IMG/VR virus record: IMGVR_UViG_3300006947_000065
Span: 1-27,418 of that record
Source of the DNA: a virus
DNA length: 27,418 nucleotides
Strand: one strand, 5' to 3'
Shown: in pieces, positions 2,203 to 25,060 of the stretch
Position numbering within the stretch: the stretch's first letter is position 1
Layout of the letters: each line of letters begins with the position of its first letter
Notes under the pieces: generated by a model
What the model saw: only the letters and a program-made list of their open reading frames with translations
What the model was told of the DNA's origin: nothing
The model's database searches: none
Made by a program: the position numbers and the translations under genes

Positions 2203-2226
2203 AACAAATTATAATTATAAAATTAT

Positions 2227-2240
2227 TATATTTGTAAAAA
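2227..2240 (+). promoter_or_regulatory. Bacteroidetes-type -7 promoter box upstream of 2250 gene
   Basis: The box TATATTTG (2227-2234) is an exact match to the Bacteroidetes primary-sigma -7 consensus TAnnTTTG. The 14 bases TATATTTGTAAAAA recur identically at 14086-14099, and both copies lie at the same distance before an ATG (box end 15 bases from the start codon). I see no clear -33 TTG at the usual distance, so this is a motif-based call. Confidence 0.55.
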
Positions 2241-2249
2241 TATTAAACT

Positions 2250-2612
2250 ATGGCAAATTTTTATAAATGGACAATAAATCAAATGAACGCCCGTATCGAA
2301 GAAGATGGGAATCAAAACGTAATCTACACAGTACACTGGACGTATACCGCTCAAGACGACGTTTATCCACAATATACCGCTAGTGAAATAGGAGCATACT
2401 CTCTAAAGTATGATCCGTCCTCACAATTCATACCGTATGCTAATACAGATGCGTTTGAAACTTATGTGGTTGGTTGGTTAAAAGCAGGGTTGCCTGTTAG
2501 TGAAATGGAATTAAGTTTGTCTAAAAAAATAAACTTAGAAAAGAATCCTATAGATGAAGACTTATACTTTACATGGGATATTCCAGATCCTCCAGAACTG
2601 CCTGAAGAATAG
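2250..2612 (+). CDS. Small fibre-associated protein, unknown function
   Basis: This 120-residue soluble protein has no signal peptide or membrane segment. The N-terminal part (residues 1-60) alternates strands and includes the aromatic motif VHWTY and a YxxxEIGAYSLKYDP stretch. The middle (about 67-82) looks helical, and the C-terminus is acidic and proline-rich (PDPPELPEE). Short proteins of this style (MANFYKW start, a VxWxY strand, ending in a WD/DPP tail) often sit beside tail-fibre genes in marine phages, as I remember them. That supports a minor virion or fibre-assembly role but does not prove one. It has its own leader with a promoter-like box at 2227, so it may be transcribed separately from the fibre gene upstream. 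It could equally be a non-structural accessory protein. Confidence 0.75.
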   Translation: MANFYKWTINQMNARIEEDGNQNVIYTVHWTYTAQDDVYPQYTASEIGAYSLKYDPSSQFIPYANTDAFETYVVGWLKAGLPVSEMELSLSKKINLEKNPIDEDLYFTWDIPDPPELPEE

Positions 2613-2624
2613 TAATATATTTAC

Positions 2625-2632
2625 TATATTTA
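2625..2632 (+). promoter_or_regulatory. Possible degenerate -7 promoter box
   Basis: TATATTTA is a 7-of-8 match to TAnnTTTG in the 51-base gap before the 2664 gene, with the ATG 31 bases after the box. In AT-rich DNA a one-mismatch hit is weak evidence, so this is listed as a candidate only. Confidence 0.25.
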
Positions 2633-2663
2633 CATAAATAAAATTAACATTAAATAAATTAAA

Positions 2664-2933
2664 ATGAGTGAAATTAAATTAACTGAAGACGAATTAAAAA
2701 GAATTCAAGAACTTAACCAAGACTTTACTAAAGGTAAATTAGAAATTGCTGACAATGTATTAAGACAGCAACAGAGTTTAAAAAATCTAGAAGATTTAAG
2801 AGGTTCTTTTGGTATTGAAGAAAAAAAATTAGCGGAGAAATATGGACAAGATGCTGTTATTGATTTAGCAACTGGTATTGTCACTAAAAAACCTGAAGCT
2901 ATAGAAGATGCGGTTGTTGAAGAAGTAAAATAA
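2664..2933 (+). CDS. Small coiled-coil protein, unknown function
   Basis: This 89-residue protein is mostly charged helix. Residues 5-60 carry regularly spaced Leu/Ile/Val consistent with a coiled coil (LTEDELKRIQELNQDF and LRQQQSLKNLEDL), followed by a short helix and an acidic tail ending AVVEEVK. There is no signal peptide, membrane segment or cysteine. The ATG follows an A/T-rich leader (attaaataaattaaa), as expected for Bacteroidetes-type initiation. It stands between two small fibre-side proteins, so a role as an assembly factor, a fibre chaperone or a minor structural protein is plausible. Nothing in the sequence fixes a function. Confidence 0.75.
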   Translation: MSEIKLTEDELKRIQELNQDFTKGKLEIADNVLRQQQSLKNLEDLRGSFGIEEKKLAEKYGQDAVIDLATGIVTKKPEAIEDAVVEEVK

Positions 2934-2940
2934 ATTATAT

Positions 2941-3468
2941 ATGTCTAGAATAAGTAATACTACTGCGTACCCTAATATAACACCAACGGTGTCAGATTAT
3001 TTTGTTTTAACAGATGCTGAAAACAATTTATCTACAAAAACATGTACGATAGAAGAATTACAGACTTTATTTGGACTGAGTAGTGTTTCAACAACAATAG
3101 CTGTAAGTTCTATTTACTTAAAAGCTTTAGGCACTCAATCATTTACATTGTTGCCAGCTCCTGGAGATGGCTTTGTTTATGTTGTTAGTGAAATTGTAAG
3201 TTTTATGAATCCGGGTAATATTGTTTTTGATTTCCCTGGAAGCGTTAATATTGTACAAGGTAGTATTACTGAGCCAATACCTAATACTTTATTAAACTCT
3301 ACAACTCAAAAAGTATATAAAAACGATCCATCACCAGCTGAATTTATTCCATCAAACACAGGAATAGTTTTACAAGCAATAGCTGGGCCATCTGCAGGAA
3401 ATACAGGTAATGGTATTTTGTATGTAAATATTACATACAGAAAATTAAAATTAGCAACTTCATTTTAA
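2941..3468 (+). CDS. Putative minor virion protein with beta-rich body
   Basis: This 175-residue protein starts seven bases after the previous stop, so the two are probably co-transcribed. Residues 1-45 (SNTTAYPNITPTVSDYFVLTDAENN...TKTCTIEELQTLFG) resemble the N-terminal segments of phage fibre or appendage proteins, in which a short 'fetch data and step through it' TDxxNN stretch precedes a helix. The remainder alternates hydrophobic and small residues typical of a beta-sandwich (VSTTIAVSSIYL, GFVYVVSEIVSFM, GILYVNITYRKLK). No catalytic motif, signal or membrane segment is seen. A virion decoration or fibre-attachment role is inferred from position and style only. Confidence 0.75.
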   Translation: MSRISNTTAYPNITPTVSDYFVLTDAENNLSTKTCTIEELQTLFGLSSVSTTIAVSSIYLKALGTQSFTLLPAPGDGFVYVVSEIVSFMNPGNIVFDFPGSVNIVQGSITEPIPNTLLNSTTQKVYKNDPSPAEFIPSNTGIVLQAIAGPSAGNTGNGILYVNITYRKLKLATSF

Positions 3469-3472
3469 CTAA

Positions 3473-3691
3473 ATGGATATAAGAAAAATCTCTATAGGTG
3501 CAGACTACAAGTCTGGCGCTATGCATTACATAACTGGACAACCTGTTCTAGGGGGTGCTTATGTTATTCATTTAATACAGCAAGAGAATTCTTCTTATAA
3601 AATTTGGATTATAAAAGATAAAGAAATTTTGTTGTGGAAAGAGTTTAAGCTTACTATGCCAATCTCGTTAGAGTATAATATAAACTTTTAA
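3473..3691 (+). CDS. Conserved-type short protein, unknown function
   Basis: This 72-residue protein reads as one small alpha/beta or all-beta domain: DIRKISIGADYKSGAMHYI, a Gly-rich turn (GQPVLGGAY), then strands VIHLIQQ, YKIWIIKDK and ILLWKEF, ending PISLEYNINF. I remember very similar short proteins (MxIRKISIGxDYK start, EYNIxF end) in marine virome contigs, so it is likely a real conserved phage protein even though no function is known to me. The stop codon overlaps the next start by one base (TAATG at 3689-3693), so translation of the 3691 gene is probably coupled to it. It opens the chain of overlapping genes that leads to the terminase and portal. Confidence 0.75.
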   Translation: MDIRKISIGADYKSGAMHYITGQPVLGGAYVIHLIQQENSSYKIWIIKDKEILLWKEFKLTMPISLEYNINF

Positions 3692-4254
3692 TGAAGTCTC
3701 CTTTTTATTTTATTGTAAAGCCTATAAAAGGTAGGCGTTATGATAATATAAAAAAAATAGGTGGACTTGATATTGTAACTAGTGTTTCGAAAGAAGATTA
3801 TAAGTCTTCAAATAGATTTGCGGAAGTTATAGCTTTACCAATAAATTATACTGGAGACATTGAAGTTGGGAATGTCTTGCTAGTTCATCATAATGTTTTC
3901 AAGTATTATAATGATATGAAAGGAAGAGAAAAAAGTGGTAAAAGCTTTTTTAAAGATGACATGTTTTTTATTGATGCTGAACAGTTTTTTTTATATTACA
4001 AAAACAATAAATGGAATGCTTATTCTAAATATTGTTTTGTTAAACCTATTCCTGTTAAAGATTTTTATTTAAACAAATTAACTACTGAAGAGCCTTTGTA
4101 TGGCATTTTAAGGTACTCTAATAAAGAGTTGGAATGTTTAGGCGTAAAAGAAGGGGATGAGATTTCTTTTACTCCAGACAGTGAATATGAGTTTTATGTA
4201 GATGGAGAAAAACTCTACAGAATGTTTACGGATAATATTACAATGATATTATGA
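3691..4254 (+). CDS. Probable tandem GroES-like co-chaperonin
   Basis: This 187-residue protein looks like two GroES-type beta-barrel domains in tandem. In the first (about 6-101), FIVKPI is followed by a loop with GG (24-25) like the GroES mobile loop, then AEVIALP (44-50) and IEVGNVLLVHH (57-67). These correspond to the 'GEVLAVG' and 'VKVGDIVIF' strands of GroES. In the second (about 114-187), CFVKPI, YGILRYS (137-143), VKEGDEISF (152-160) and the closing LYRMFTDNITMI repeat the same order. Phage GroES-like proteins (T4 gp31 is the classic case) adapt the host GroEL chamber for capsid protein folding, and the nearby capsid gene suits that role. The call rests on pattern matching by eye. It starts inside the previous stop (TAATG) and its own stop overlaps the next ATG (ATGA). 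Confidence 0.6.
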   Translation: MKSPFYFIVKPIKGRRYDNIKKIGGLDIVTSVSKEDYKSSNRFAEVIALPINYTGDIEVGNVLLVHHNVFKYYNDMKGREKSGKSFFKDDMFFIDAEQFFLYYKNNKWNAYSKYCFVKPIPVKDFYLNKLTTEEPLYGILRYSNKELECLGVKEGDEISFTPDSEYEFYVDGEKLYRMFTDNITMIL

Positions 4255-4721
4255 ACATATATGTATATGATAATGTTTTAGAAGATCCTGATTCTTATGT
4301 AAAGGAAGTATTATTAAATGGTTTTGAAGATGTGCAAATAGGTGAAGATCTTTTTAGATCGGTAAAACAAAAAGGTAGAGATGATATAATTGATTTTTTA
4401 TGGGATAAATTTCCAGGACATTATGCAGCATTAAATTTCGTTAGACAATCACCACAAGATCAAACAGAGCCTAATTTTATTCATTCAGATGAAATGATGG
4501 GCGAATTAACCGTTATAACTTATTTAAATAAAGAGGTTTGTTTTGGTGATGGAACTACCATTTATAATAACGACTTAAAACCTATTTGTGTTTTAAAAGC
4601 AGATTATAATAGGATGGTTGTGTTTGAGTCGTATTTAAATCATTCAAGGAATATATATGAAAATTTTGGGAACCAAGATAGTTCTAGATTAATCCAAGTT
4701 ACTTTTTTAAAAAAGTTATGA
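4251..4721 (+). CDS. 2-oxoglutarate/Fe(II)-dependent oxygenase
   Basis: This 156-residue protein has the signature of the 2-oxoglutarate- and Fe(II)-dependent dioxygenase fold. The HxD pair of the iron triad is H78/D80 in a FIHSD context, followed by a strand-rich segment (LTVITYLN). The distal histidine is H131 in LNHSR, and R146 in SRLIQVTF is the expected 2-oxoglutarate-binding arginine. The N-terminus (IYVYDNVLEDPDSYVKE) matches small prolyl-hydroxylase-like oxygenases common in marine phages. The usual reaction is hydroxylation (or oxidative demethylation) of a protein or small molecule in the cytoplasm; the substrate here is unknown. The start overlaps the GroES-like gene (ATGA at 4251) and the stop overlaps the SET gene (ATGA at 4718), so the three are probably made together. 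Confidence 0.8.
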   Translation: MNIYVYDNVLEDPDSYVKEVLLNGFEDVQIGEDLFRSVKQKGRDDIIDFLWDKFPGHYAALNFVRQSPQDQTEPNFIHSDEMMGELTVITYLNKEVCFGDGTTIYNNDLKPICVLKADYNRMVVFESYLNHSRNIYENFGNQDSSRLIQVTFLKKL

Positions 4722-5128
4722 GTATAGAAAACATAAGTCAAGACGATTATTTTAATATGCTAAATGAATATGGTTTAAACGAAGAAGACGTTAATCGTAT
4801 GATTAACAGTAAGGAGTTTGATAAAATAGCAGGTGAAGTAATTGACGAACCTAGTGAATTATATTATAAAGCGCCATCTCAAATTCACAAACAAGGTATG
4901 TTTGCTAAAATTAAATTTTTTAAAAATGATTTTATGGGATATGGCGTTAAAAATAAAAAAAGGTCATTAATTGGTAGGTATACAAATCATTCTTCTTTAA
5001 ACAATTCAGAGTTTATTCAATTCAACAAAAGTGATGTAATTTTAATTGCTACAAAAGATATTAAAATAAATGAAGAAATTTTAGTAAATTACAGACACCA
5101 TAGTAAATTACCTAATGAATATAAATGA
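4718..5128 (+). CDS. SET-domain protein, putative protein lysine methyltransferase
   Basis: This 136-residue protein has an N-terminal helical part (1-46) and then a compact SET domain (about 48-128). Visible SET motifs are a QGMFAK strand (59-64; equivalent to GxGvfA), the RYTNHSS block (87-93; the NHS motif that forms the S-adenosylmethionine-binding pseudoknot), and ATKDIKINEEILVNY (111-125; equivalent to the 'A..dI..GEEl..dY' block with its terminal tyrosine). SET proteins transfer a methyl group from S-adenosylmethionine to lysine side chains. At about 80 residues the domain is short, lacking visible pre- and post-SET zinc clusters, as in bacterial and phage members. The target is unknown; host or virion proteins are both possible. 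It is translationally coupled to the oxygenase before it and overlaps the next gene by 14 bases. Confidence 0.75.
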   Translation: MSIENISQDDYFNMLNEYGLNEEDVNRMINSKEFDKIAGEVIDEPSELYYKAPSQIHKQGMFAKIKFFKNDFMGYGVKNKKRSLIGRYTNHSSLNNSEFIQFNKSDVILIATKDIKINEEILVNYRHHSKLPNEYK

Positions 5129-5390
5129 AATAAAAGAACAGATAATTAATGCAGGAGAAAAAGCGGTATTGCAATTAATAAAAGTAGCTAAAGAGGATAT
5201 TATTAAATACGATAAGGATGATGAATTAGCTGCTGACAGATTAAAGAATGCAGCTGCAACTAAAAAACTAGCTATTTTTGATGCGTTTGAAATACTAAAA
5301 AGAATTGAAGACGAAAAACAATTATTAAATGGCGTTGATGTAAATAAAAATAATACCCCAAAAGGATTTGCAGAATCAAGATCAAAATAA
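5115..5390 (+). CDS. Small helical protein, candidate terminase small subunit
   Basis: This 91-residue protein is almost entirely helical (NEIKEQIINAGEKAVLQLIKVAKEDI, then ELAADRLKNAAATKKLAIFDAFEILKRIEDEKQLL), ending in a basic, disordered tail. It begins inside the end of the SET gene and its last 23 bases overlap the start of the large terminase. Being directly upstream of the terminase large subunit is the classic place of the small subunit, and a small, all-helical DNA-recognising protein would fit. However, no helix-turn-helix is obvious and the protein is short for that family. The 'candidate small terminase' label is therefore positional inference; a terminase-associated unknown is the alternative. 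The gene itself is well supported by its codon pattern and tight overlaps. Confidence 0.55.
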   Translation: MNINEIKEQIINAGEKAVLQLIKVAKEDIIKYDKDDELAADRLKNAAATKKLAIFDAFEILKRIEDEKQLLNGVDVNKNNTPKGFAESRSK

Positions 5391-7617
5391 TTTATTTAGC
5401 CCTGTTCTTAAAGCAGTGCCTGCTAATGTTTTGTCTACCAAAAACAAATCAAAAACATGGCAATATGGCTACAATGAAAAATATGATTTTGTAGTTATAT
5501 CTAAATCAGGACAGATTCAAGATATAATAAACATTAATGGATTAAAGATTGCTTTACCTAAGCCACCATCCAAAGTCTACAAGCGTTCTAAAAGCAAAAA
5601 AGAGCAATATTGGAAAGCAACTGAAGTTCACAAAGATTTAAAAAGAATTCAATCAATATTTCAATGGCATGAAGCTCCTATACAATTTAAAAATAAATGG
5701 GTTGATTATATTGAACAAGAGTTTGATAGAAGAGAAGAAGGTTTTTGGTTTATAAATAATAGTGTTCCTACTTACATCACAGGAACACATTACATGTATT
5801 TACAATGGACTAAGATTGATGTTGGTCATCCTGACTTTAGAGAAGCTAATAGATTATTTTACATTTTTTGGGAAGCGTGTAAGGCTGACAAACGAAGTTT
5901 TGGAATGTGTTATTTAAAAATAAGACGTTCGGGGTTTTCATTTATGAGCTCGTGCGAGGGTGTGAATACTGCGACCATTACTAAAGATTCTAGAGTTGGT
6001 ATACTATCTAAAACAGGAGCGGATGCTAAAAAAATGTTTACTGATAAGATAGTTCCTATATCTAACAATTACCCTTTCTTTTTTAAACCCATACAAGATG
6101 GTATGGATAAACCTAAAACTGAATTAGCTTATCGTGTTCCGGCCTCTAAAATAACCAAGAAAAACATGTATACTGTTAGTGAAAATGATTTAGAAGGATT
6201 AGACACTACTATTGACTGGAAGAATACATCTGACAACAGTTATGATGGAGAAAAATTACAACTGCTTTTGCATGATGAAAGTGGTAAATGGGAACGCCCG
6301 GAAAACATATTAAATAACTGGAGGGTTACCAAAACTTGTTTACGTTTAGGAAGTAGAATAATAGGTAAATGTATGATGGGATCAACATCAAATGCATTAG
6401 ACAAAGGGGGTAGAAATTTTAAAGATTTATTTGAAGCTTCAGATTGTTTAAAAAGAAATCAAAATGGCCAAACTAAAAGTGGGTTATATAATTTGTTTAT
6501 TCCTATGGAGTGGAATATGGAGGGGTTTATTGACCGTTATGGTATGCCTGTTTTTAATAATTCTGAAGATAAAATAATAGGCATTGATGGTGAGCTAATA
6601 AAACAAGGTGCTGTAGATTATTGGAGAAATGAAGTAGACTCTTTAACTTCAGATCCTGATGCGTTAAATGAATTTTATAGGCAGTTTCCTAGAACAGAAT
6701 CGCATGCATTTAGAGATGAGAGTAAACAATCATTATTTAATCTTACTAAAATATATCAGCAAATTGACTATAACGATTCTTTAAATATACACCATCATGT
6801 AACTCAAGGATCTTTTTATTGGAAAGATGGGATACAAGATTCTAGTGTAATATGGTCTCCAAATAAAAGAGGAAGATTTTTTGTAACTTACACTCCTAAA
6901 GCCGCACTTCAAAACAATGTGATTGTTAGGGCTGGTAAAAAATATCCAGGCAACGAACACATAGGAACATTTGGGTGCGACTCTTATGATATTTCAGGCG
7001 TGGTTGTTGGGAAAGGTTCTAACGGAGCTTTACATGGGTTAACCAAATTCAACATGGATGATGCGCCAAGTAATGAATTCTTTTTAGAATATATTGCTAG
7101 ACCTCAAACGGCTGAAATATTTTTTGAAGAAGTGTTAATGGCTTGTGTGTTTTATGGCATGCCAATATTATGTGAGAATAATAAACCTCGTTTATTGTAT
7201 CATTTTAAAAATAGAGGATACAGGGGGTTTTGTTTAAATAGACCTGATAAGGTTTATAATAAATTATCTAAGACTGAAAGAGAGTTAGGAGGAATTCCTA
7301 ACACCTCTGAAGATGTAAAACAATCACACGCCTCTGCTATTGAGTCGTATATTGAAAAACATGTAGGTTTGGATTTAGAAGGGACTTATAGAGATAAAGA
7401 CGATATGGGAAATATGTATTTTCGCAAAACTTTAGAAGATTGGGCAAAGTTCGATATATCTAACAGAACAAAATTTGATGCTTCTATTAGTTCAGGTCTG
7501 GCAATTATGGCAAATCAAAAACACCTCTATACTCCGGTAGAAAAAAAATCAAAAATAAGCATTAACTTTGCAAGATATAATAATAAAAATTCAGTAAGTC
7601 AATTACTTAATAAATGA
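5368..7617 (+). CDS. terL: Terminase large subunit
   Basis: This 749-residue protein is the ATP-driven DNA packaging motor and nuclease. The ATPase half shows a variant Walker A at LKIRRSGFSF (about 183-192), lacking the usual lysine before S/T, and a Walker B at LLLHDE (299-304) with D303 and E304 as the acidic pair, followed by GKWE. The nuclease half shows an RNase H-like first acid in GCDSYD (D538), a second in LCEN (E603), and a late acid in TKFDASISSGLA (about D704). The frame is open only from 5344 and the codon at 5368 is TTG; the first in-frame ATG (codon 143) lies well inside the conserved protein. A TTG start that overlaps the previous gene by 23 bases is therefore the best choice, preceded by an AAAAGGA stretch. 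The stop overlaps the portal start (ATGA). Confidence 0.93.
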   Translation: MQNQDQNNLFSPVLKAVPANVLSTKNKSKTWQYGYNEKYDFVVISKSGQIQDIININGLKIALPKPPSKVYKRSKSKKEQYWKATEVHKDLKRIQSIFQWHEAPIQFKNKWVDYIEQEFDRREEGFWFINNSVPTYITGTHYMYLQWTKIDVGHPDFREANRLFYIFWEACKADKRSFGMCYLKIRRSGFSFMSSCEGVNTATITKDSRVGILSKTGADAKKMFTDKIVPISNNYPFFFKPIQDGMDKPKTELAYRVPASKITKKNMYTVSENDLEGLDTTIDWKNTSDNSYDGEKLQLLLHDESGKWERPENILNNWRVTKTCLRLGSRIIGKCMMGSTSNALDKGGRNFKDLFEASDCLKRNQNGQTKSGLYNLFIPMEWNMEGFIDRYGMPVFNNSEDKIIGIDGELIKQGAVDYWRNEVDSLTSDPDALNEFYRQFPRTESHAFRDESKQSLFNLTKIYQQIDYNDSLNIHHHVTQGSFYWKDGIQDSSVIWSPNKRGRFFVTYTPKAALQNNVIVRAGKKYPGNEHIGTFGCDSYDISGVVVGKGSNGALHGLTKFNMDDAPSNEFFLEYIARPQTAEIFFEEVLMACVFYGMPILCENNKPRLLYHFKNRGYRGFCLNRPDKVYNKLSKTERELGGIPNTSEDVKQSHASAIESYIEKHVGLDLEGTYRDKDDMGNMYFRKTLEDWAKFDISNRTKFDASISSGLAIMANQKHLYTPVEKKSKISINFARYNNKNSVSQLLNK

Positions 7618-16023: not shown

Positions 16024-19000
16024 ATGCCAATAGTAAACACAAATTTTATTGCAGGTAGAATGAATAAAAGTGTGGATGAACGATTAGTTCCTCCAGGCGA
16101 ATACATTAATGCAATTAATGTTAGATTAGGGTCTACTGAATCTACAGAAATAGGTGCAGTAGAAAATTCAAAAGGAAATTCTAAATTAACAACTTTAACG
16201 TATGGTGGTCAAGCATTATCTAATCAAGCAAAATGTTTGGGAGCGTTTGAAGACGGCTCTTTGGAAACTCTTTATTGGTTTATTCATGATTCTAATAATC
16301 CAGTTGCAACTGATGGAATTGTGGACTTGGTTGTGTCATACAACACAAATACGCAAGTAGTAGTTTATCATGTTACAACATTAGATTTATTAAATTTTAA
16401 TGTTGACTATTTAATAACTGGTATTAATAAAATAGAAAATTTATTGTTTTGGACAGATAATTTTAATCCTCCAAGAAAGATAAATGTTAATTCTAATTAC
16501 AACGATCCTGTAGGAGATTTAGATGGTGTTATTGAAGAAGATATTAGTGTGATATTAAAACCACCTGGATATACTAATTTAGACAATTTAACAGCGCCAA
16601 GTATAAATTTAATTTCAGCGCCAGGAGATGAAAATTATTTAGACGAAAGGTTTATAACTTTTGCTTATAGATATCGCTATGTTGATCAAGAATATAGTGC
16701 AACGTCTTTATTTACAAAACCAGCTTTTGCTCCAGGGCCTTTTAGGTTTGATACTAATAATTATAATAATGCTGGTATGATAAACCAGTATAACACAGCT
16801 GAAGTCAGTTTTAATACGGGAGGTAAAAATGTAATACAAGTTGATTTGTTATTTAAACCAACAGATTCTAATGTTATTTTTGTAATAGAAAGATTTAATA
16901 AATCAGATTATGGGTGGGCTGACAATACTACTCAAAATTATACATTTACTAACAGCAAAATATACACCTCTTTAGGATCAGATGAATTATTAAGGTTGTA
17001 TGATAACGTACCTAAAACAGCAAAAGCTCAAACGATAATGGGTAATCGTTTAATGTATGCTAATTATAAAGATGGATACAATATTACAAATTCAAACAAT
17101 ATTTCAATTCCTATAAACTATACAACTAGTCATTTAGTTAATGATATTTTATTTGAAGATTTACCTGATGCAACATTATCAGAAGGCATAGCGTATTCAA
17201 TAAATCCAGCTACTGCCACTACGATACCTAATTCTAAGGTTACGTTTGACTTATCGGGTCAAGTATTGTTGTTAAAAAGAGGGTCTAGTTTTAATTTTAC
17301 TTTAAACATTGAACATGATACTTTAAACGGAAGTGTAGGCGATGCTTGTTATGATGCTTCATTTGAAAATCCTGCATTTTTATTAAACTTTTCTTTTCCA
17401 TTAGATCAAGATTATTCTTCAGTTTCTAATATGGTTAATAGTGAGGCTTTTGCAAATAGAATAGGAACTTTAATAGGTGTTAATTTTGAAGTTATTGCAA
17501 ATGCAGCTTTAGGATCTTCTTTAACCGACTTTTTTAACTCTGAATTAATTGCACCAACTAATTGTTCTTTTGGTAAATCCAACAGTAGTATTAATTCACA
17601 AACTCAACAAGGGTTTAAATTAACTAGCTCTGGAAATACATTTTCATTACAAATTTTAGCAATGAAATTCTTGTCGGGAGCTACTGAAGTATATGAATAC
17701 TTTAGAATAACACAAGGTACTGGGAATTTTACATCTCAAAAAGATACGTCTTCATTACATAGTAACAGGGATTATGATACTGGTATTGTATACATGGATA
17801 ATAACGCAAGAGCTTCAACAGTGTTGGTCTCTGAAAACAACACAATATTCGTTCCTACACTAAATAGTGTAAATCAAAATAAAATAAAAGTAAATATAGA
17901 AAACTTACCGCCTTCTTGGGCTACTAAATATAAATTTGTCACAAAATCAAGTGGCGGAAATTACGAAACTTTATATTCTAATTTTTATTATCAATCTACC
18001 GCTAACAGAGTTGTGTACTTTAAGTTAGAAGGGCAAAATAAAAATATACCAAAAGCAGGTGATGTGTTAATTGTCAAAAGAGATGCGTCTGGGCCTCTAG
18101 AGAGGTTAGTAAAATCCGAGGTTTTAGCTGTAGAAGCTGAAGCTGTAGATTTTTTAGCAACTGCAGCTGGGTTAGGGGCAGAATCTAATCAATTAGCTGG
18201 TTTGTATATGCAAATGAAGCCCTCAAACTTTTCAATTGCTATAGATGACAACGCAGTTATTGATTTAGGTGATTTTAATTATAGAGATAATTCTGGAAGC
18301 AAGTGTAAGGCTAAAGTAAGTTATCCATGTTTTTACACTAATGATGACTCAACAACTAATAACTATACAATACCAGCTGGTAGTCAAATCTATATGAGAT
18401 GGTTTATTCGTAGAGTTAATAGAAATAGTTGTGCTGGTATTGAATGGTTGTGGGAAAGAACTTATGTAGCTAGTGCAGATTATACCGACTTGTATCAATG
18501 GTTTAAAGGTGATGATATTGATCCTGGTGTAGGAGAGCTAATAGAGAATGTAGATGATCGAATGAATCAAGCCTATTTTACATCAACACTAGCTTCTAAT
18601 GAAAATTCTATTATTTGCACGCCTTTTGAACCTAATTTTCAATTTTGGCAAGCAAATCCTGGGGATGCAGCTTCACCATTATACTTAACATGTAGAAGTG
18701 GAGTAAGAGGTTGCGGTTATAGTGGTTCAACCTCTAATATAAACGCTGAAATAGTAGTAACTAGAGCTAACAATTTAATAGTGTGGGAAACAGAACCTTT
18801 AGACGCAAGTTCTGATTTATATTTTGACGCTTCAGAAGCTTATAATGTTACTAACGGATTTCATATGGGTGGTAATAGAGAAGGTGATCAATCTCAAACC
18901 GCTAATAGAAACGCTATAGTAACAATACCTTTTGCTAATTGTTATACTTTTGGAAATGGTGTTGAGAGTTATAAAATAAACGATTCTTTAATTGGAAAAA

Positions 19001-21168
19001 GTTTTAATTTAGGTGAAAGAACGTTAGCTGTATCTACACAAGATTTTAAATCTGCAGATAGATTTGCTGGCATAACTTATAGCGGAGTATTTAGTAGCTC
19101 TTCAAATGTCAATAATTTAAATGAGTTTAATTTAGGCTTAGTTAATTTTAAAGATTTAGAAACAAGTTTTGGCCCTGTAATGATTCTTCACGCAAGAGAG
19201 ACTGATATTCTTGTTTTGCAAGAAGACAAAATATCTTATGTATTAGCTTCTAAAAATTTAATAAGTGATTCTACTGGTGGTGGCGCTATAGCTTCAGTGC
19301 CTGAAATATTAGGAACACAAATTGCTAGAATAGAAGAGTATGGAATTAGTTTTAATCCTGAGAGTTTTACTTCATGGGGGTTTGACATGTATTTTACTGA
19401 TACCAAAAGAGCTTCAGTTCTTAAGTTAAGCGGGAGTTCTAGAAAAACTGATGAATTAGAGGTTATTTCAGATACAGGAATGAGATCTTGGTTTAGAGAT
19501 CAATTTAATGTACAGTTAAATACGCAAAAATTAGGAGGATATGATCCTTATATGGATGAATATGTCTTAGGAACTAACGGAACTTCAATTCCATTATCTC
19601 CTATTGTTATACCATGTGGTACTACTCAAGCAATAAACGATACAAGCACAGTTCGATCCTACACTGTAGGGTTAGGTGAGGTTATAGGAAATGTAGTTAT
19701 AGATTATACTGTAGGAACTGGAACTTTAACTATTGTCGCAGAATGGGATGGTGCAATAGTGGCTTCAGTTTATAATACAACATCTTCAGGATCAATTAAT
19801 TTTAATAAAACAAAAAGATTCCCAGATTCACTAACGGTAACAGTAACGCCTGTAGCCGCACCAGTATCTTATACATTAACGGCTAAATGCCCAGCTGAAA
19901 AAGAATTAATAATTTTTCAAGTTGGATTAAATTCTGATGAAAATACCGGTCAATTTATTACTAATGAATTTAGTTGGAAAGACGCTTTAATAACAAGTCC
20001 TACTGAATCAAATAGAATGACTTTTGCTTCAGATCCTGAGATTGCTTCTCAATATAATCTGTCTGAAGGTATACGATCTTTAGGTGTGTTTCCGTATAAT
20101 GGAGCAAACGTAACAATAAGATCTAATAAAATTGGTTTTGATGATTATGATTGGGTTATAAATAGTGATAATTTTAGATGGTTATCATCTAGTGTGCTTT
20201 ATCCTAATACTAGCCAGGGTATATCTAATTTATTAACGGCTGCAACTAAAATAGTTAATACAGCTGTAACAAACCCAAGTCCTGGAATTTATCAAACAAC
20301 TGTAAACTCTATGAGTTTACCTGATACTAATTCATATTTATATTTAATATATGATTATAGAACTATAAACTCCGCTTCATTATGTTATGATGCTACTTCT
20401 TTTAGTGAGTCATGTTGTGATTGCGGTAATTTTTGTACTCCATATAGTTCATCAACTGTACAACAATCTAGCAGTGTAGCTTGTGTTCAACCAACTGGAC
20501 AAACATATTATCACGATGGGTTAAACCCTTTACCAATAATAGGTGATACTGTTTATTCTACTCCTTCATGCTCATCAGGATCTACTCTAAATGGTGGGTT
20601 TTATAAAATTGGAGGAAATGATCAATGGATTAGTGTTAATACGGCTGGAATTGTAACTCAAATAGGTTTTTGTACAACACGAACTTTTGACTCAAGTATA
20701 AAAGAATTACAGAATACTGTTGTATGTACTTTAGATATTGATCAGAAATATTATTTTAATGGAGCTGGAGTATTACCAGTTGCAACTAATTATTGTTATT
20801 CTGATCCAGGTATTACACCTTTAGCAAACGGACTTTATAGGATAACATCCACGCAATATTTAGTTATAGCAGGAGGCCTTGGTCAAGTTAGTAGTGTTGG
20901 AATTTGTCAAGCATTGGTATACTATCCTTTTAATACTGAATTGCAACCATCTCCAACTGCAGCTTGTAGGTACACGCATTTATTAACAATGGTATATTAT
21001 ACAACTTTTGGTACTGGCCCTTCAAACGGAGCAGGGACTTTAATATATAGTGATCAAGCAGGAACTTTAGCTCCTAACGAAGTTTTTGCATATAGTATAG
21101 CTCCAAATACATATTTTACTACTGATAACTTAGGGGCAATTGACGCAAATGGAATACAAAATTGTTAA
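16024..21168 (+). CDS. Muzzle / stabilization protein (P22 gp10-like) with repeat tail
   Basis: This 1714-residue protein closes the tail channel and retains packaged DNA. Typical markers are the N-terminal FIAGRMNKSVDERLVPPGEY with AINVRLG (8-36), LLFWTDN...PPRKIN (140-154), a LYDNVP...GNRLMYANY segment (about 325-350), the LVLQEDKISYVL and EILGTQIARIEEYG block (about 1063-1100), and FRDQFN...NTQKLGGYDPYMDEYVLG (about 1157-1183). An Ig-like beta domain follows (about 1195-1290, starting PCGTTQ). A short SWKDALITSP segment comes next, then from about residue 1450 a Cys-containing repeat region (LCYDATSFSESCCDC, then three YY-type modules) ending in Cys-stop. It is far longer than P22 gp10 (about 470) and long even for crAss-like muzzle proteins. 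It is one base from the preceding gene and seven from the next. Confidence 0.85.
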   Translation: MPIVNTNFIAGRMNKSVDERLVPPGEYINAINVRLGSTESTEIGAVENSKGNSKLTTLTYGGQALSNQAKCLGAFEDGSLETLYWFIHDSNNPVATDGIVDLVVSYNTNTQVVVYHVTTLDLLNFNVDYLITGINKIENLLFWTDNFNPPRKINVNSNYNDPVGDLDGVIEEDISVILKPPGYTNLDNLTAPSINLISAPGDENYLDERFITFAYRYRYVDQEYSATSLFTKPAFAPGPFRFDTNNYNNAGMINQYNTAEVSFNTGGKNVIQVDLLFKPTDSNVIFVIERFNKSDYGWADNTTQNYTFTNSKIYTSLGSDELLRLYDNVPKTAKAQTIMGNRLMYANYKDGYNITNSNNISIPINYTTSHLVNDILFEDLPDATLSEGIAYSINPATATTIPNSKVTFDLSGQVLLLKRGSSFNFTLNIEHDTLNGSVGDACYDASFENPAFLLNFSFPLDQDYSSVSNMVNSEAFANRIGTLIGVNFEVIANAALGSSLTDFFNSELIAPTNCSFGKSNSSINSQTQQGFKLTSSGNTFSLQILAMKFLSGATEVYEYFRITQGTGNFTSQKDTSSLHSNRDYDTGIVYMDNNARASTVLVSENNTIFVPTLNSVNQNKIKVNIENLPPSWATKYKFVTKSSGGNYETLYSNFYYQSTANRVVYFKLEGQNKNIPKAGDVLIVKRDASGPLERLVKSEVLAVEAEAVDFLATAAGLGAESNQLAGLYMQMKPSNFSIAIDDNAVIDLGDFNYRDNSGSKCKAKVSYPCFYTNDDSTTNNYTIPAGSQIYMRWFIRRVNRNSCAGIEWLWERTYVASADYTDLYQWFKGDDIDPGVGELIENVDDRMNQAYFTSTLASNENSIICTPFEPNFQFWQANPGDAASPLYLTCRSGVRGCGYSGSTSNINAEIVVTRANNLIVWETEPLDASSDLYFDASEAYNVTNGFHMGGNREGDQSQTANRNAIVTIPFANCYTFGNGVESYKINDSLIGKSFNLGERTLAVSTQDFKSADRFAGITYSGVFSSSSNVNNLNEFNLGLVNFKDLETSFGPVMILHARETDILVLQEDKISYVLASKNLISDSTGGGAIASVPEILGTQIARIEEYGISFNPESFTSWGFDMYFTDTKRASVLKLSGSSRKTDELEVISDTGMRSWFRDQFNVQLNTQKLGGYDPYMDEYVLGTNGTSIPLSPIVIPCGTTQAINDTSTVRSYTVGLGEVIGNVVIDYTVGTGTLTIVAEWDGAIVASVYNTTSSGSINFNKTKRFPDSLTVTVTPVAAPVSYTLTAKCPAEKELIIFQVGLNSDENTGQFITNEFSWKDALITSPTESNRMTFASDPEIASQYNLSEGIRSLGVFPYNGANVTIRSNKIGFDDYDWVINSDNFRWLSSSVLYPNTSQGISNLLTAATKIVNTAVTNPSPGIYQTTVNSMSLPDTNSYLYLIYDYRTINSASLCYDATSFSESCCDCGNFCTPYSSSTVQQSSSVACVQPTGQTYYHDGLNPLPIIGDTVYSTPSCSSGSTLNGGFYKIGGNDQWISVNTAGIVTQIGFCTTRTFDSSIKELQNTVVCTLDIDQKYYFNGAGVLPVATNYCYSDPGITPLANGLYRITSTQYLVIAGGLGQVSSVGICQALVYYPFNTELQPSPTAACRYTHLLTMVYYTTFGTGPSNGAGTLIYSDQAGTLAPNEVFAYSIAPNTYFTTDNLGAIDANGIQNC
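20371..21168 (+). repeat. Cys-containing YYHxG repeat modules at muzzle C-terminus
   Basis: Residues ~1450-1714 contain a linker (LCYD...CCDCGNFC) and three modules with the pattern YYH/FNGxG, P(V/I)x(T/G)D/N, YSDPG/Q, LANG(L/F)Y and a closing (I/V)xxC. The first starts near QTYYHDG, the second at KYYFNGAG, the third near VYYTTFG. The same modules appear in the three ORFs that follow, including at each of their C-termini. Confidence 0.8.
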
Positions 21169-21175
21169 ATAAATT

Positions 21176-21667
21176 ATGGCAACAAGAGGAATATATTATT
21201 TTGATGGATTAAGTTTTGCTTTAGCAAGATCATTGTTTACGGATTCAACTTTAGACACGCTAGCTCCAGATGGATATTATACATTAGGAGCAGTTTCCAG
21301 AAGACAAGTATCTGGTCGTTTAGAAAATGCCGTTATATGTCCTGCATGTGGCACAGCTACAGATTTATGTTATGATGCTGACTCAGCTGACGATGTATGT
21401 TGTCCTGGATGCTCAACTACTCTGACATCTTTTACATCTACGGTTGCAGGTAATTTTAGCGGAACTTGTAGTGACAATAACTTTACTCAAACATATTACC
21501 ATAATGGATCAGGAACTATCCCTTCGACAGGTGATTTAGTTTATACAGATTCAGACGGGCTAATACCTTTACCTAATGCCTATTACCATACAAATGATAC
21601 GGGAACTAGCACTTTTTTTAGAACTACAAACAGCACAGGGTTTGTTGGGCTTTTAGAATCGTGTTAA
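21176..21667 (+). CDS. Modular repeat protein, putative tail appendage (one copy of each module)
   Basis: This 163-residue protein contains one copy of each of two modules. The first (residues 5-50: GIYYFDGLSFALARSLFTDSTL then DGYYTLGAVSRRQVSG in outline) ends in a Cys block CPACGTATDLCYDADSADDVCCPGC (55-79, in part). The second (about 104-163) runs TQTYYHNGSGT, GDLVYTDSDG, LPNAYYH and finishes GFVGLLESC-stop. It starts seven bases after the muzzle gene. Both modules match those in the muzzle C-terminus and in the next two ORFs, so it is probably an outer tail or fibre component assembled with them, or a domain cut off from a longer ancestral protein. I cannot name a function. The Cys pattern could bind metal or be redox-active. 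Confidence 0.75.
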   Translation: MATRGIYYFDGLSFALARSLFTDSTLDTLAPDGYYTLGAVSRRQVSGRLENAVICPACGTATDLCYDADSADDVCCPGCSTTLTSFTSTVAGNFSGTCSDNNFTQTYYHNGSGTIPSTGDLVYTDSDGLIPLPNAYYHTNDTGTSTFFRTTNSTGFVGLLESC

Positions 21668-21734: not shown

Positions 21735-22727
21735 ATGGCAACAACTGGAACTTATTTTCTAAATGACACAGTCTGGGCTTCAGGCGATGCAAATACTGCT
21801 ACAAATATATTTACTAATTCTGATTTATCCACTGCAGCACCTGCAGGATGGTATAAAAGCGGAAGTGTTTACAGAGAAGTAACAGGAGCTGTTGGTGCTT
21901 TAGGTACTTCAGCTAGTTGTACTACCTGTGGAACAGCATTTGTGTTAGGATATGGAGCTACAGCTTTTGCAGCTTGCTGTTCTGGAACAACTGCTACTTT
22001 TTATTTAGATACTGCAGCTTTTGCAACAGCAACTAGTGTTTGGACTAGCCCATTAATGAGCACCCAAGCAGCTAACCAACAATATTCTTTTAGCGGTAAT
22101 AGTAGAGATAAAGTTTCGAACGCTCAATTTGATGCATCAACTGCATGTGCTACATGTTATCCAGCAATTGGATTATCATTTGGAGCAACAGCAAAAGCAG
22201 CTTGTTGTACAGGTGCTTCAGCTACTTATTATATGAACCAGACAACTTTCGCTGCTTCAACAAAATTATATACTAATTCTGACGGATCAACAGCAGCAGG
22301 TAATGGATTTTATTCTTTTGACGCTGGCTTAGGTGGTACGGTAGTACAGAAACAAGCAAGTGGAGGTGATGGAACTTTAACAGGAACAACAACAAATTGT
22401 GTTGCTTGTGCTACAAGTATTTCGTTATGTTATAGTTCAGTAAGTGTTGATGAGTTATGTTGTACTGGATGTGCTGCATTAACATCATTTGTTGGTTCAA
22501 CCGCTTCTAACTTTAACTCAGTTTGTTCAGTGGCAACAATGGCAACTACATATTATCATAACGGTTCGGCATCATTACCAGTGGTCGGAGACTTAGTGTT
22601 TACTAATTCAGGAGGAACAACACCATTATCCAATGCTTATTACAAAATTAATACAGCAGCGGCAAGTGATAGTTATATTAGAATAACAGGAAGTAACGGG
22701 TATATAGCTGGATTGGAAGATTGTTAG
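21735..22727 (+). CDS. Modular repeat protein, putative tail appendage (three plus one modules)
   Basis: This 330-residue protein carries three copies of the first module (about 5-82, 86-158, 162-247). Each has the pattern GTYFLN/ATFYLD/ATYYMN, an 'AT.L/F(Y/F)T(N/S)S(D)' stretch, G(W/F)Y, and a closing cysteine block (SCTTC...AACCSG; ACATC...AACCTG; NCVAC...LCCTGC). It ends with one copy of the second module (271-330: TTYYHNGSAS, GDLVFTNSGG, SNAYYKIN, YIAGLEDC-stop). The composition is extremely Ala/Thr/Ser-rich. The start MATTGTYFLN aligns with MATRGIYYFD and MPTQGTYFLD of the neighbouring ORFs. The likely role is a fibre-like or repeat appendage of the virion. The Cys motifs are intriguing but of unknown function. 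Confidence 0.78.
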   Translation: MATTGTYFLNDTVWASGDANTATNIFTNSDLSTAAPAGWYKSGSVYREVTGAVGALGTSASCTTCGTAFVLGYGATAFAACCSGTTATFYLDTAAFATATSVWTSPLMSTQAANQQYSFSGNSRDKVSNAQFDASTACATCYPAIGLSFGATAKAACCTGASATYYMNQTTFAASTKLYTNSDGSTAAGNGFYSFDAGLGGTVVQKQASGGDGTLTGTTTNCVACATSISLCYSSVSVDELCCTGCAALTSFVGSTASNFNSVCSVATMATTYYHNGSASLPVVGDLVFTNSGGTTPLSNAYYKINTAAASDSYIRITGSNGYIAGLEDC

Positions 22728-22754: not shown

Positions 22755-24290
22755 ATGCCAACGCAAGGAACGTATTTTTTGGATACATCATCGTTTGCTA
22801 CCACTACAAATCTATTTACAGATGAAGGTCTTACGACTGTGGCCAGCAACGGATGGTATCAAAGTGGAGTTTCATTTAGGCAACTTTCTGGAGGAAACTT
22901 AGGGTCTACAGTTTATACTTGCGAGTGTACTACATTTTCATCATCATCTATACAGTCTACTTCTACTCTTGCGTGTGCAGCTAGTCTAAGTCAAACGTAT
23001 TATCATACAGGTTCTGGTAGCACGCCAGTAGCAACAAATGTTTGTTATTCGGATGCTGGTCAAACAGTATTGGGTAACGGATTTTATAAAATATCCACTG
23101 CAGGAAACGGAACGTATATGCAAATTACTGGAGGTTCTGGAGTTGTATCAGGAATTACAACTTGCCCTGCATCAGTAATATCTTACAGTTCATCAAGCGT
23201 AGAGTCTACTTTAGTTGCTGCTTGTGGAGCTACAGCAAATCAAACTTATTACCATGCAGGCTCAGGAAGCACCCCGTTAGCAACAAATATTTGTTATTCA
23301 GATTCAGGAACAACAGTATTAACTAATGGATATTATAAGGTTGCACCTTTAAGTCAAAACTATACTATAACTGTTGCTAATGTAGGAGCAGGAAATAAAT
23401 ATTATATTAACGGAGTATTACAAACAACTTTTGTATTGTCAAAAGGATATACTTACACTTTTAATCAAACAGCATCTACAAACACTAACCATCCATTTAG
23501 GCTATCAACAACTAATAATGGTACTCATGGTGGTGGTGTTCAGTACACAAGCGGATGGTCAGATAATGGCGGTACAGCTGGTTCAACTTTAATATCAACA
23601 TTTGTAGTGCCTGCAAACGCACCAGATACATTATATTATTATTGCCAATACCATTCTGGAATGGGTGGACAAATCAATATAGGGGCTGGAAGTTCTCAAG
23701 GAACGTACGCTCAAATTACTGGAGGTTCTGGAGTTGTTGCTAGTGTAGGCGCATTTTCACTAGGCACATCGTTTAGCTCATCATCTATACAAACTACATC
23801 TACACTTGCGTGCGCTGCTAGTATAGGTCAAACTTATTATCACAATGGAGCTGGTTCAGCTCCGGTTGCATCAAACGTTTGTTATAGCAATGCTTGTAAA
23901 TCAACAGTATTAGGTAATGGATATTATAAAATATCTACATCAGGAAACGGAACGTATATGCAAATTACTGGAGGAAGCGGTGTCGTTTCATCAGTAACAT
24001 CTTGTCCATCATCATTAACCTCTTATAGTTCATCTGTTAAAGGAGTGTTTAACCAAGCTTGTCCTTTCAACGGATCTAACCCTGGTTTAACTGAAACTTA
24101 TTATCATGACGGTGGAGGTTCAGCAGGCACACCACCAGCAACTGGGGATAGTTGTTATTCAGACTCTGGTGGATCAACACTTTTATTATCAGGATATTAT
24201 AACTTAGACAATAATACAGGAGTAGACAATAGGTCTTATATATCAATAACAAATGGTGTAGTAGACTTTGGATATCCAACGGATTGTTAA
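22755..24290 (+). CDS. Modular repeat protein with inserted cupredoxin-like domain
   Basis: This 511-residue protein begins with one copy of the first module (5-58, ending TCECT) and continues with four copies of the second module (about 60-137, 141-332, 337-417, 422-511). Each has a Ser-rich hinge (FSSSSIQSTSTLAC), QTYYHxGSGS, CYSD, L(G/T)NG(F/Y)YK, and a QITGGSGVV closing strand. The second copy is split after YYKVAPLSQ by a separate beta domain (202-310) carrying H246, C297, H300 and M303 in a type-1 copper arrangement; its closing GTYAQITGGSGVV follows the insertion. The last copy diverges and ends GYPTDC-stop. The protein is probably a virion appendage. It starts 28 bases after the preceding stop and lies 11 bases before the next gene. 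Confidence 0.8.
   Translation: MPTQGTYFLDTSSFATTTNLFTDEGLTTVASNGWYQSGVSFRQLSGGNLGSTVYTCECTTFSSSSIQSTSTLACAASLSQTYYHTGSGSTPVATNVCYSDAGQTVLGNGFYKISTAGNGTYMQITGGSGVVSGITTCPASVISYSSSSVESTLVAACGATANQTYYHAGSGSTPLATNICYSDSGTTVLTNGYYKVAPLSQNYTITVANVGAGNKYYINGVLQTTFVLSKGYTYTFNQTASTNTNHPFRLSTTNNGTHGGGVQYTSGWSDNGGTAGSTLISTFVVPANAPDTLYYYCQYHSGMGGQINIGAGSSQGTYAQITGGSGVVASVGAFSLGTSFSSSSIQTTSTLACAASIGQTYYHNGAGSAPVASNVCYSNACKSTVLGNGYYKISTSGNGTYMQITGGSGVVSSVTSCPSSLTSYSSSVKGVFNQACPFNGSNPGLTETYYHDGGGSAGTPPATGDSCYSDSGGSTLLLSGYYNLDNNTGVDNRSYISITNGVVDFGYPTDC
23101..23134 (+). repeat. 34-bp perfect direct repeat, copy 1
   Basis: This stretch of 34 bases (starting CAGGAAACGGAACG) is identical to 23941-23974 and codes for the same residues GNGTYMQITGG near the end of two repeat modules. 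The two copies are exactly 840 bases apart, a multiple of three. Sequence to both sides also matches with few changes, indicating a recent duplication or gene conversion between modules. Confidence 0.9.
23358..23684 (+). other. Cupredoxin-like domain with full type-1 copper ligand set
   Basis: Residues 202-310 of the 22755 ORF form a beta domain of ~109 residues with strands YTITVAN, KYYINGV, YTYTFNQ, FRLSTT and FVVPAN. The pattern NHPF (H246) and YYYCQYHSGMGG (C297, H300, M303) gives His, Cys, His, Met in the order and spacing of plastocyanin-type copper sites. Similar HPFRLST...YYCxxHxGM domains recur in marine phage structural proteins, as I remember them. Copper binding here is inference. 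Confidence 0.75.
23941..23974 (+). repeat. 34-bp perfect direct repeat, copy 2
   Basis: This is the second copy of the 34-base direct repeat first seen at 23101, within the module that follows the one holding the cupredoxin insertion. It is in the same reading frame as copy 1, so recombination between the copies would delete 280 codons, including the cupredoxin domain, without a frameshift. Confidence 0.9.
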
Positions 24291-24301
24291 AATAAAAAAA
24301 T

Positions 24302-25060
24302 ATGGCAGTAGAAACTTTACAAACATTATCGTATAGTACTGGAGCAAAAGGCTGGCCGTCTTTCTATACTTACTTTCCTGATTACATGATAGGAATGAAT
24401 AGTTTCTTTTATTCTTTTAAAAACGGCAACTTATTTAGACATAACACAAACGAGGTTAGAAATAATTATTATGGTGTGCAAGGTATCTCAACAATACAAA
24501 GTGTATTTAATCCTGAGCCCACTTTATCCATAAAACTTTTTAAAACAATGTCTTTAGAAAGTAACGCTAGCTGGAATGTAACTCAATTAATAACCGACTT
24601 AAGTTCGGGATCAATGTTAAGTACATATTTTGAACAAAAAGAAGGTGAATGGTTTAGTTATATTAGAAGTAATAGTGGAGCTGTAGATTGGAATTTAAGG
24701 TCTGCTAATGGTTTAGCTACTAGTAATAATATTACAGGAACACCAGCTGCAAAAGTAATTAACTTTGCAAATCCCATAGGAAGTATATTAAGTATAGGTG
24801 ACAGTATTTATGCTAAGACTGACCCACCAGAAAAAGTTGGTGATATAACAAGTTTAACATCAAGTTCTATTACCGTAGATGCGTCTGCTGTAGGAGCATA
24901 CCAACCACAAGCAGGCGATTTTATCTTATCTTACAAAGATAGTGTTGCCGAGTCTCAAGGAGCTCGTGGATATTACATGGAGTTTACTCTTACAAATGGC
25001 AGTACAGCAGCTGTAGAATTATTTTCAGTAGGAAGTGATGTCATGAAAAGTTATCCATAG
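24302..25060 (+). CDS. Muzzle-associated protein, probably the distal part of a split muzzle
   Basis: This 252-residue protein starts (residues 12-48) with GAKGWPSFYTYFPDYMIGMNSFFYSFKNG in outline, followed by NLFRHNTNEVRNNYYGVQG. I remember this 'KGW.SF..Y.PD...GMN..FYSFKNG.L(Y/F)RHN' segment from the distal end of large muzzle/stabilization proteins in related phages. Further segments, TLSIKLFKTMSLESNASWNV and FEQKEGEWFSYIR, also fit that region. Residues ~145-205 form a small beta domain (AKVINFANP...SIGDSIYAK...SSITVDAS), and the end is a strand-rich YYMEFTLTNGS. It is 11 bases after the repeat-rich ORF and may complete the muzzle assembly as a separate chain. A claim of an ancestral split is inference. 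Confidence 0.68.
   Translation: MAVETLQTLSYSTGAKGWPSFYTYFPDYMIGMNSFFYSFKNGNLFRHNTNEVRNNYYGVQGISTIQSVFNPEPTLSIKLFKTMSLESNASWNVTQLITDLSSGSMLSTYFEQKEGEWFSYIRSNSGAVDWNLRSANGLATSNNITGTPAAKVINFANPIGSILSIGDSIYAKTDPPEKVGDITSLTSSSITVDASAVGAYQPQAGDFILSYKDSVAESQGARGYYMEFTLTNGSTAAVELFSVGSDVMKSYP

Follow-up and report, generated by a model that had tools for sequence, protein, structure and literature searches.

What would a domain resembling a small blue copper protein be doing inside a repeat of a phage protein, and is it likely to carry copper? This question is raised by an open reading frame at positions 22755–24290 of a 27,418-nucleotide viral sequence (IMG/VR record IMGVR_UViG_3300006947_000065), referred to here as the window; it is the entire record of this virus contig. 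The original prediction, made from the sequence, was that residues 202–310 of the encoded protein form a cupredoxin-like domain with intact copper ligands, and that the phage appendage may thereby bind copper, with a possible role in stability, attachment, or redox chemistry. The encoding reading frame, its parts, and its neighbors between positions 16024 and 25060 lie on the + strand.

A Foreign Domain within a YYH Repeat

The reading frame is open throughout and encodes a 511-amino acid protein, which combines an N-terminal module with four YYH repeats (at residues 82, 165, 361, and 449) and matches phrog_21885 (E = 1.1e-11). Its second repeat is interrupted by a foreign domain. YYKV (residues 193–196, positions 23331–23342) is the final element of the host repeat ahead of the insert, and GTYAQITGGSGVV (residues 316–328, positions 23700–23738) marks its restart. 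Motif positions, repeat alignment, and comparison with orthologs all place the split exactly between these two elements, as originally proposed. When the two halves of repeat 2 are joined without the insert, they align gap-free to repeats 1 and 3 and also to the repeats of orthologs. The break point corresponds to a loop of a few residues, and the length of this loop differs among the other repeats.

The inserted stretch covers residues 198–315 (positions 23346–23699), within which the cupredoxin-like domain occupies residues 202–310, that is, exactly positions 23358–23684 as first given. The predicted positions of YYKV, NHPF, YYYCQYHSGMGG, and GTYAQITGGSGVV were likewise all correct. Several weak Pfam matches of the full reading frame (Glyco_hydro_20b, Crystall_2, and ricin-type lectin) were far under the cut-off and were discarded.

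Genomic Context and Probable Location in the Virion

Relatives of the window's terminase were found in Flavobacterium elemoviruses and Cellulophaga phages, which makes Bacteroidota the likely hosts. Terminase, portal, and muzzle-type proteins (phrog_6681, phrog_6547, crAss_MUZ_C, and homologs of gp120 and gp121 of Cellulophaga phage phi13:2) place this marine phage among phi13:2-like podophages, which are related to the crassviruses of the gut; phi13:2 itself is called the outgroup in a structural study of crassviruses (PMC10172136). In phi13:2-like phages (Baltivirus and Elemovirus), terminase, structural proteins, and the muzzle C-terminal domain occur in the same order as in the window.

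Upstream of the 511-amino acid protein lie a 1714-amino acid homolog of virion structural proteins with YYH repeats at its C-terminus (positions 16024–21168; phrog_14478, E = 6.7e-232; homolog of phi13:2 gp120), a 163-amino acid YYH-repeat protein (positions 21176–21667; phrog_21885, E = 1.4e-7), and a 330-amino acid protein with YYH-type repeats and without a cupredoxin (positions 21735–22727; phrog_21885, E = 2.6e-9). Downstream is a protein with the crassvirus muzzle C-terminal domain (positions 24302–25060; PF25729, E = 4.2e-13), which is homologous to the phi13:2 structural protein gp121. Genes gp120 and gp121 are adjacent in phi13:2, both annotated as structural, whereas three YYH reading frames separate their homologs in the window. 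Because of this arrangement, and since YYH repeats also end the 1714-amino acid protein, we infer a tail tip decorated by the YYH proteins. The term phage appendage used in the original prediction is plausible from gene order and from the annotation of relatives as structural proteins. Nothing in the gene neighborhood indicated copper or electron-transfer genes.

Some other features of the window are unusual. The 330-amino acid YYH-type protein is rich in cysteine (Cys) pairs (e.g., CCSG, CCTG, and CTTC). A 136-amino acid protein with a SET domain (positions 4718–5128; PF00856, E = 1e-8) is encoded beside the terminase genes, an uncommon place for it, and the reading frame at positions 3691–4254 matches the GroES co-chaperonin family phrog_13932 (E = 3e-20).

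Orthologs Lacking the Domain and Origin of the Insert

The domain is missing from the seven closest IMG/VR orthologs (L001–L007, recurring as L198–L204), whose proteins have about 300–321 amino acids, the same position, and the same preceding neighbors. A profile search of the loci retrieved with the N-terminal part of the protein detected a cupredoxin in none of 30. The end of repeat 2 in the window protein resembles the end of the first repeat in the orthologs, indicating that the window protein has one extra repeat in addition to the insert. The insertion of this domain into a YYH repeat is a combination for which no second case was found in IMG/VR.

Both GC3 and codon usage of the insert are like those of the other genes of the phage, so that there is no visible sign of a recent gain. 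No other copy exceeds 65% identity to the insert, and in a tree of the domain, which had too few columns, the window copy joined no supported clade. A fusion of this kind could also arise if a cyanophage or pelagiphage fragment had been joined into the contig during assembly, and it is true that the exact fusion occurs only once in IMG/VR and that the reading frame is repetitive. However, such a chimera would need two in-frame junctions at a repeat loop, the insert would have to match the codon usage and GC3 of this phage, and the low identity to all other copies leaves it without a known donor. We therefore regard a chimeric assembly as very improbable.

Fold of the Inserted Domain

We modeled residues 195–322 with AlphaFold2 using an alignment of 67 rows of relatives. 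The model (mean pLDDT 86.9, pTM 0.80) is a beta-sandwich of nine strands. When it was searched against PDB with Foldseek, 19 matches were obtained at E ≤ 1e-3, nearly all of which are cupredoxins (copper proteins). Rusticyanin was the top match (E = 7.8e-5), and AcoP, copper nitrite reductase, and a pseudoazurin with an engineered amicyanin loop were also found; next in the list came an azurin with a CAAHAAM loop (E = 2e-3). The TM-scores to known cupredoxins are modest (0.36–0.54), and SO1698 of Shewanella, a non-copper protein, is also among the matches, so that the fold class is well supported and the kinship distant. As modeled, residues 202–310 are a genuine cupredoxin-fold domain with a Greek-key beta-sandwich, in line with the original prediction, which a different predicted fold would have refuted. 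A model of the whole protein, built from only seven rows, had a pLDDT of 36 and was not used.

In profile searches against cupredoxin families, no curated Pfam or NCBIfam copper model was matched at its cut-off. PF00127 (Copper-bind) did not match the window copy and matched 12 of the 67 relatives weakly (best E = 0.0042), and PF25489 (At5g54830-like) scored 13.3 bits against a cut-off of 27. Sequence searches of PDB yielded chance matches to antibodies and an endoglucanase, which were rejected, and one weak match to pseudoazurin.

Predicted Copper Ligands

Based on motifs and conservation, four residues are predicted to be copper ligands. H246 (codon at positions 23490–23492) is part of NHPF (residues 245–248, positions 23487–23498), and C297 (positions 23643–23645), H300 (positions 23652–23654), and the predicted axial ligand M303 (positions 23661–23663) are all contained in YYYCQYHSGMGG (residues 294–305, positions 23634–23669). 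Their order and spacing are those originally described, and together they represent a complete type-1 copper ligand set at the sequence level. In the AlphaFold2 model, H246 directly precedes one strand and the other three lie between the last two strands, as in type-1 sites. The C-x2-H-x2-M spacing equals that of the CAAHAAM loop of engineered azurin (as given in the PDB title) and also that of the natural amicyanin loop.

Of 106 alignment columns, only 11 are invariant, and these include all four predicted ligands (P about 7e-5 for four positions named in advance). All 96 complete IMG/VR copies (100 unique copies were found) have the full His-Cys-His-Met set. Since several search seeds contained the ligand motifs, the possible bias was checked by a seed split and by a motif-free tblastn sample. 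Among copies from genomes, 54 of 55 have complete ligands, and so do 34 of the 35 that the Cys motif had not caught; in both cases, the exception has glutamine in place of Met. The motif-free sample comprised 24 named-phage loci with the window left out, and ligands were intact in 30 of its 40 copies or fragments. Of the ten others, some are second copies within baseplate proteins of cyanophages, some belong to tail proteins of S-WAM1 and S-SZBM1, and some are fragments; none of those that span the ligand stretch has Cys, His, or Met in place, although the first His may persist. Homologs that routinely lack the ligands, which would have spoken against the original prediction, were therefore not what we observed: most retain them, and those that do not drop Cys, His, and Met together.

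This all-or-none behavior favors a metal site. On the other hand, the survival of ligand-free phage copies implies that the fold can persist, and has some value, without a metal. Judged by sequence and model, the domain probably binds copper. Chance is a poor explanation for the whole observation, given seven orthologs without the insert, hundreds of relatives of the domain, and ligands that fall among the few invariant columns.

Two types of variant copy were noted. Second copies without the ligand set occur in cyanophage baseplate proteins (L192, residues 554–671 of the reading frame at 3243–6227; also L197, L231, and L237), each accompanied by an intact upstream copy in the same protein. 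The SAR86 copy in L168 (residues 241–337 of the reading frame at 2–1015) has Gln at the axial position (CHQ), where it replaces Met; the same substitution is known from stellacyanin-type sites.

Distribution in Marine Phages and Cellular Organisms

The original prediction mentioned similar domains in other marine phage proteins, and they are indeed widespread. A tblastn search retrieved 340 phage records with the domain, almost all from cyanophages and a few from pelagiphages, and both the collected copies and predicted viral structures agree with its presence in phage proteins. Most of the carrier proteins are annotated as tail fiber, baseplate wedge, gp9 connector, virion structural, or hypothetical protein. 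The window copy belongs to this group by significant sequence matches, both to phrog_677 (E = 2.9e-16 over residues 9–115 of the domain), whose C-terminus represents the group, and to S-TIM5 (AEZ65678, E = 6e-26). Its relatives in tail or structural proteins of named phages (e.g., S-TIM5 AEZ65678, HTVC028P gp32, P-SSM2 PSSM2_028, and the C-terminus of the phrog_677 gp9 connector) share up to about 54% identity and the same four ligands, and their records name no copper function. These copies, mainly from cyanophages, are N-terminal, C-terminal, or located between other tail modules, whereas in the window a phi13:2-like phage has the domain within a YYH repeat. One protein of cyanophage ACG-2014d contains a YHYH domain in addition to a cupredoxin-like copy (L234, reading frame at 2050–5511; PF14240, E = 1.5e-23).

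A scan of marine genomes, assembled from metagenomes or single cells, also revealed the domain, which is carried by secreted proteins of SAR86, Marine Group II archaea, and Bacteroidota. Some of these loci are clearly cellular: the SAR86 copy in L157 is on a 1.19-Mb contig alongside adenylate kinase and BacA, and the Bacteroidota copy in L181 adjoins ribonucleotide reductase and a tRNA synthetase. Direct reading of the sequences indicated lipoprotein-like or signal-like starts in L135, L159, L163, L177, and L181, with a collagen-like stalk in L135 and L181 and a cadherin-like stalk in L159. Other genome hits, for instance from single cells of Pelagibacter, may represent phage DNA; one of them groups with HTVC028P in the domain tree with almost no branch length. 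The secreted proteins resemble the window protein in having the domain with its ligands, which they place outside the cell envelope and often after a stalk; they differ in being cellular proteins with signal sequences rather than a phage repeat protein. Within one ocean community, the module is thus shared by phages, on their virion appendages, and by cells, in proteins that they secrete. Collagen-like stalks and the cupredoxin were found together in L135 (reading frame at 3311–4342; Marine Group II, lipoprotein-like), L181 (2747–4231; Bacteroidota, secreted), and L188 (2563–4260; P-SSM2, tail-fiber-like).

Possible Function of the Domain

The most likely interpretation is that the tail tip exposes a mobile cupredoxin. 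A module common to tail and baseplate proteins of marine phages and to secreted surface proteins of marine bacteria and archaea would have been grafted into a loop of a YYH-repeat protein, most likely at the tail tip, in a phi13:2-like podophage infecting Bacteroidota. The domain would bind one copper ion, which would lock the ligand loop, and the copper-loaded domain would serve the tail appendage for display or docking, its H300 edge turned toward a partner on the cell surface. We assign this full statement a probability of about 0.5; the insertion, fold class, ligand retention, and spread of the family are supported directly by our results, and copper occupancy, position on the virion, and the docking role are its inferred parts. 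It is favored by the confident model, the nearly exclusive matches to cupredoxins, the retained ligands, and the empty site in seven orthologs, as well as by carriers that are mostly tail, baseplate, or structural proteins, cellular relatives that are secreted with stalks, and neighbors homologous to virion structural proteins. It is weakened by the modest TM-scores and the lack of a copper family at its cut-off, by the ligand-free phage relatives, and by orthologs that manage without the domain.

Other functions should be weighed against the same observations. Copper might be purely structural, stapling the loop and stiffening a beta-sandwich spacer with no copper-dependent task at the host surface. 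Such a role fits the use of the fold alongside numerous other modules in long tail and baseplate proteins, and the persistence of ligand-free copies in the same type of protein suggests that its main value may be that of a spacer; however, more drift of single ligands would then be expected, and the strict all-or-none pattern, together with the presence in secreted cellular proteins, hints at more, if not strongly. We consider this account fairly improbable. The conserved residues might instead serve packing or internal contacts in a metal-free adhesin with a cupredoxin fold. Ligand-free relatives, the lack of a significant copper family match, and other invariant columns of the same loop, which are aromatics and a glycine (Y294, Y295, and G304), are compatible with this idea. 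Yet packing can hardly explain why Cys, His, and Met are kept or lost jointly, nor the change of the axial Met to Gln and a spacing known to hold copper in engineered azurin, and we find the metal-free reading unlikely.

About equally unlikely, if not slightly more so, is a redox-active domain or copper lure, which during attachment would exchange electrons with proteins of the host envelope or be mistaken for copper cargo. The type-1 ligand set and the loop spacing of electron-transfer cupredoxins speak for such a role, and an iron version has been proposed for marine phage tails (PMC11705849). However, the iron hypothesis is itself untested in that study, and the gene neighborhood offers no pointer to copper or electron transfer. 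Display or docking by a copper-loaded domain is our preferred reading.

Comparison with Known Systems and Implications

Small blue copper proteins such as amicyanin, pseudoazurin, rusticyanin, and plastocyanin share with the window domain the fold class (by Foldseek), the His-Cys-His-Met order, and, in amicyanin and the CAAHAAM azurin, the length of the C-x2-H-x2-M loop. They are free electron carriers, whereas the window domain is an insert in a phage repeat protein and has no significant sequence match to them. A functional analogy is provided by the iron-bearing HxH tail fibers of T4 (gp37) and Alteromonas phage R22Y, whose metal site has been given a proposed receptor role known as the Trojan Horse (PMC11705849). 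Like these fibers, the window domain would offer a metal site, predicted in our case, on a phage tail with a proposed role in receptor contact; the fibers use a different metal and different ligands and have no separate metalloprotein domain. For the window phage, metal-dependent recognition of this type is suggested by analogy only.

Public records already contain the domain itself, mostly labeled as a tail or hypothetical protein. A search of titles and abstracts, with most subscription journals outside its reach, found no literature on it as a cupredoxin or on its copper binding or function. What is new is the site of insertion, a YYH repeat in a phage of the phi13:2-like group.

A broader possibility is that working type-1 copper centers are present on the virions of marine phages whose tails are of unrelated types, that the module passes between these phages and surface proteins of bacteria and archaea in the ocean, and that copper on the tail contributes to host attachment or to redox contact with the envelope. 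We consider this extension doubtful, somewhat more so than a purely structural copper. The copper question can be tested directly, as the domain is short and present in cultured phages (S-TIM5, HTVC028P, and P-SSM2). Our analysis also reveals a module that phage tails share with proteins on the surface of cells from the same ocean community. Should the domains be loaded with copper, hundreds of sequenced cyanophages and pelagiphages, as well as the window phage, would present copper proteins at the interface where infection takes place, and the copper chemistry of seawater would be tied to infection, as has been proposed for iron.
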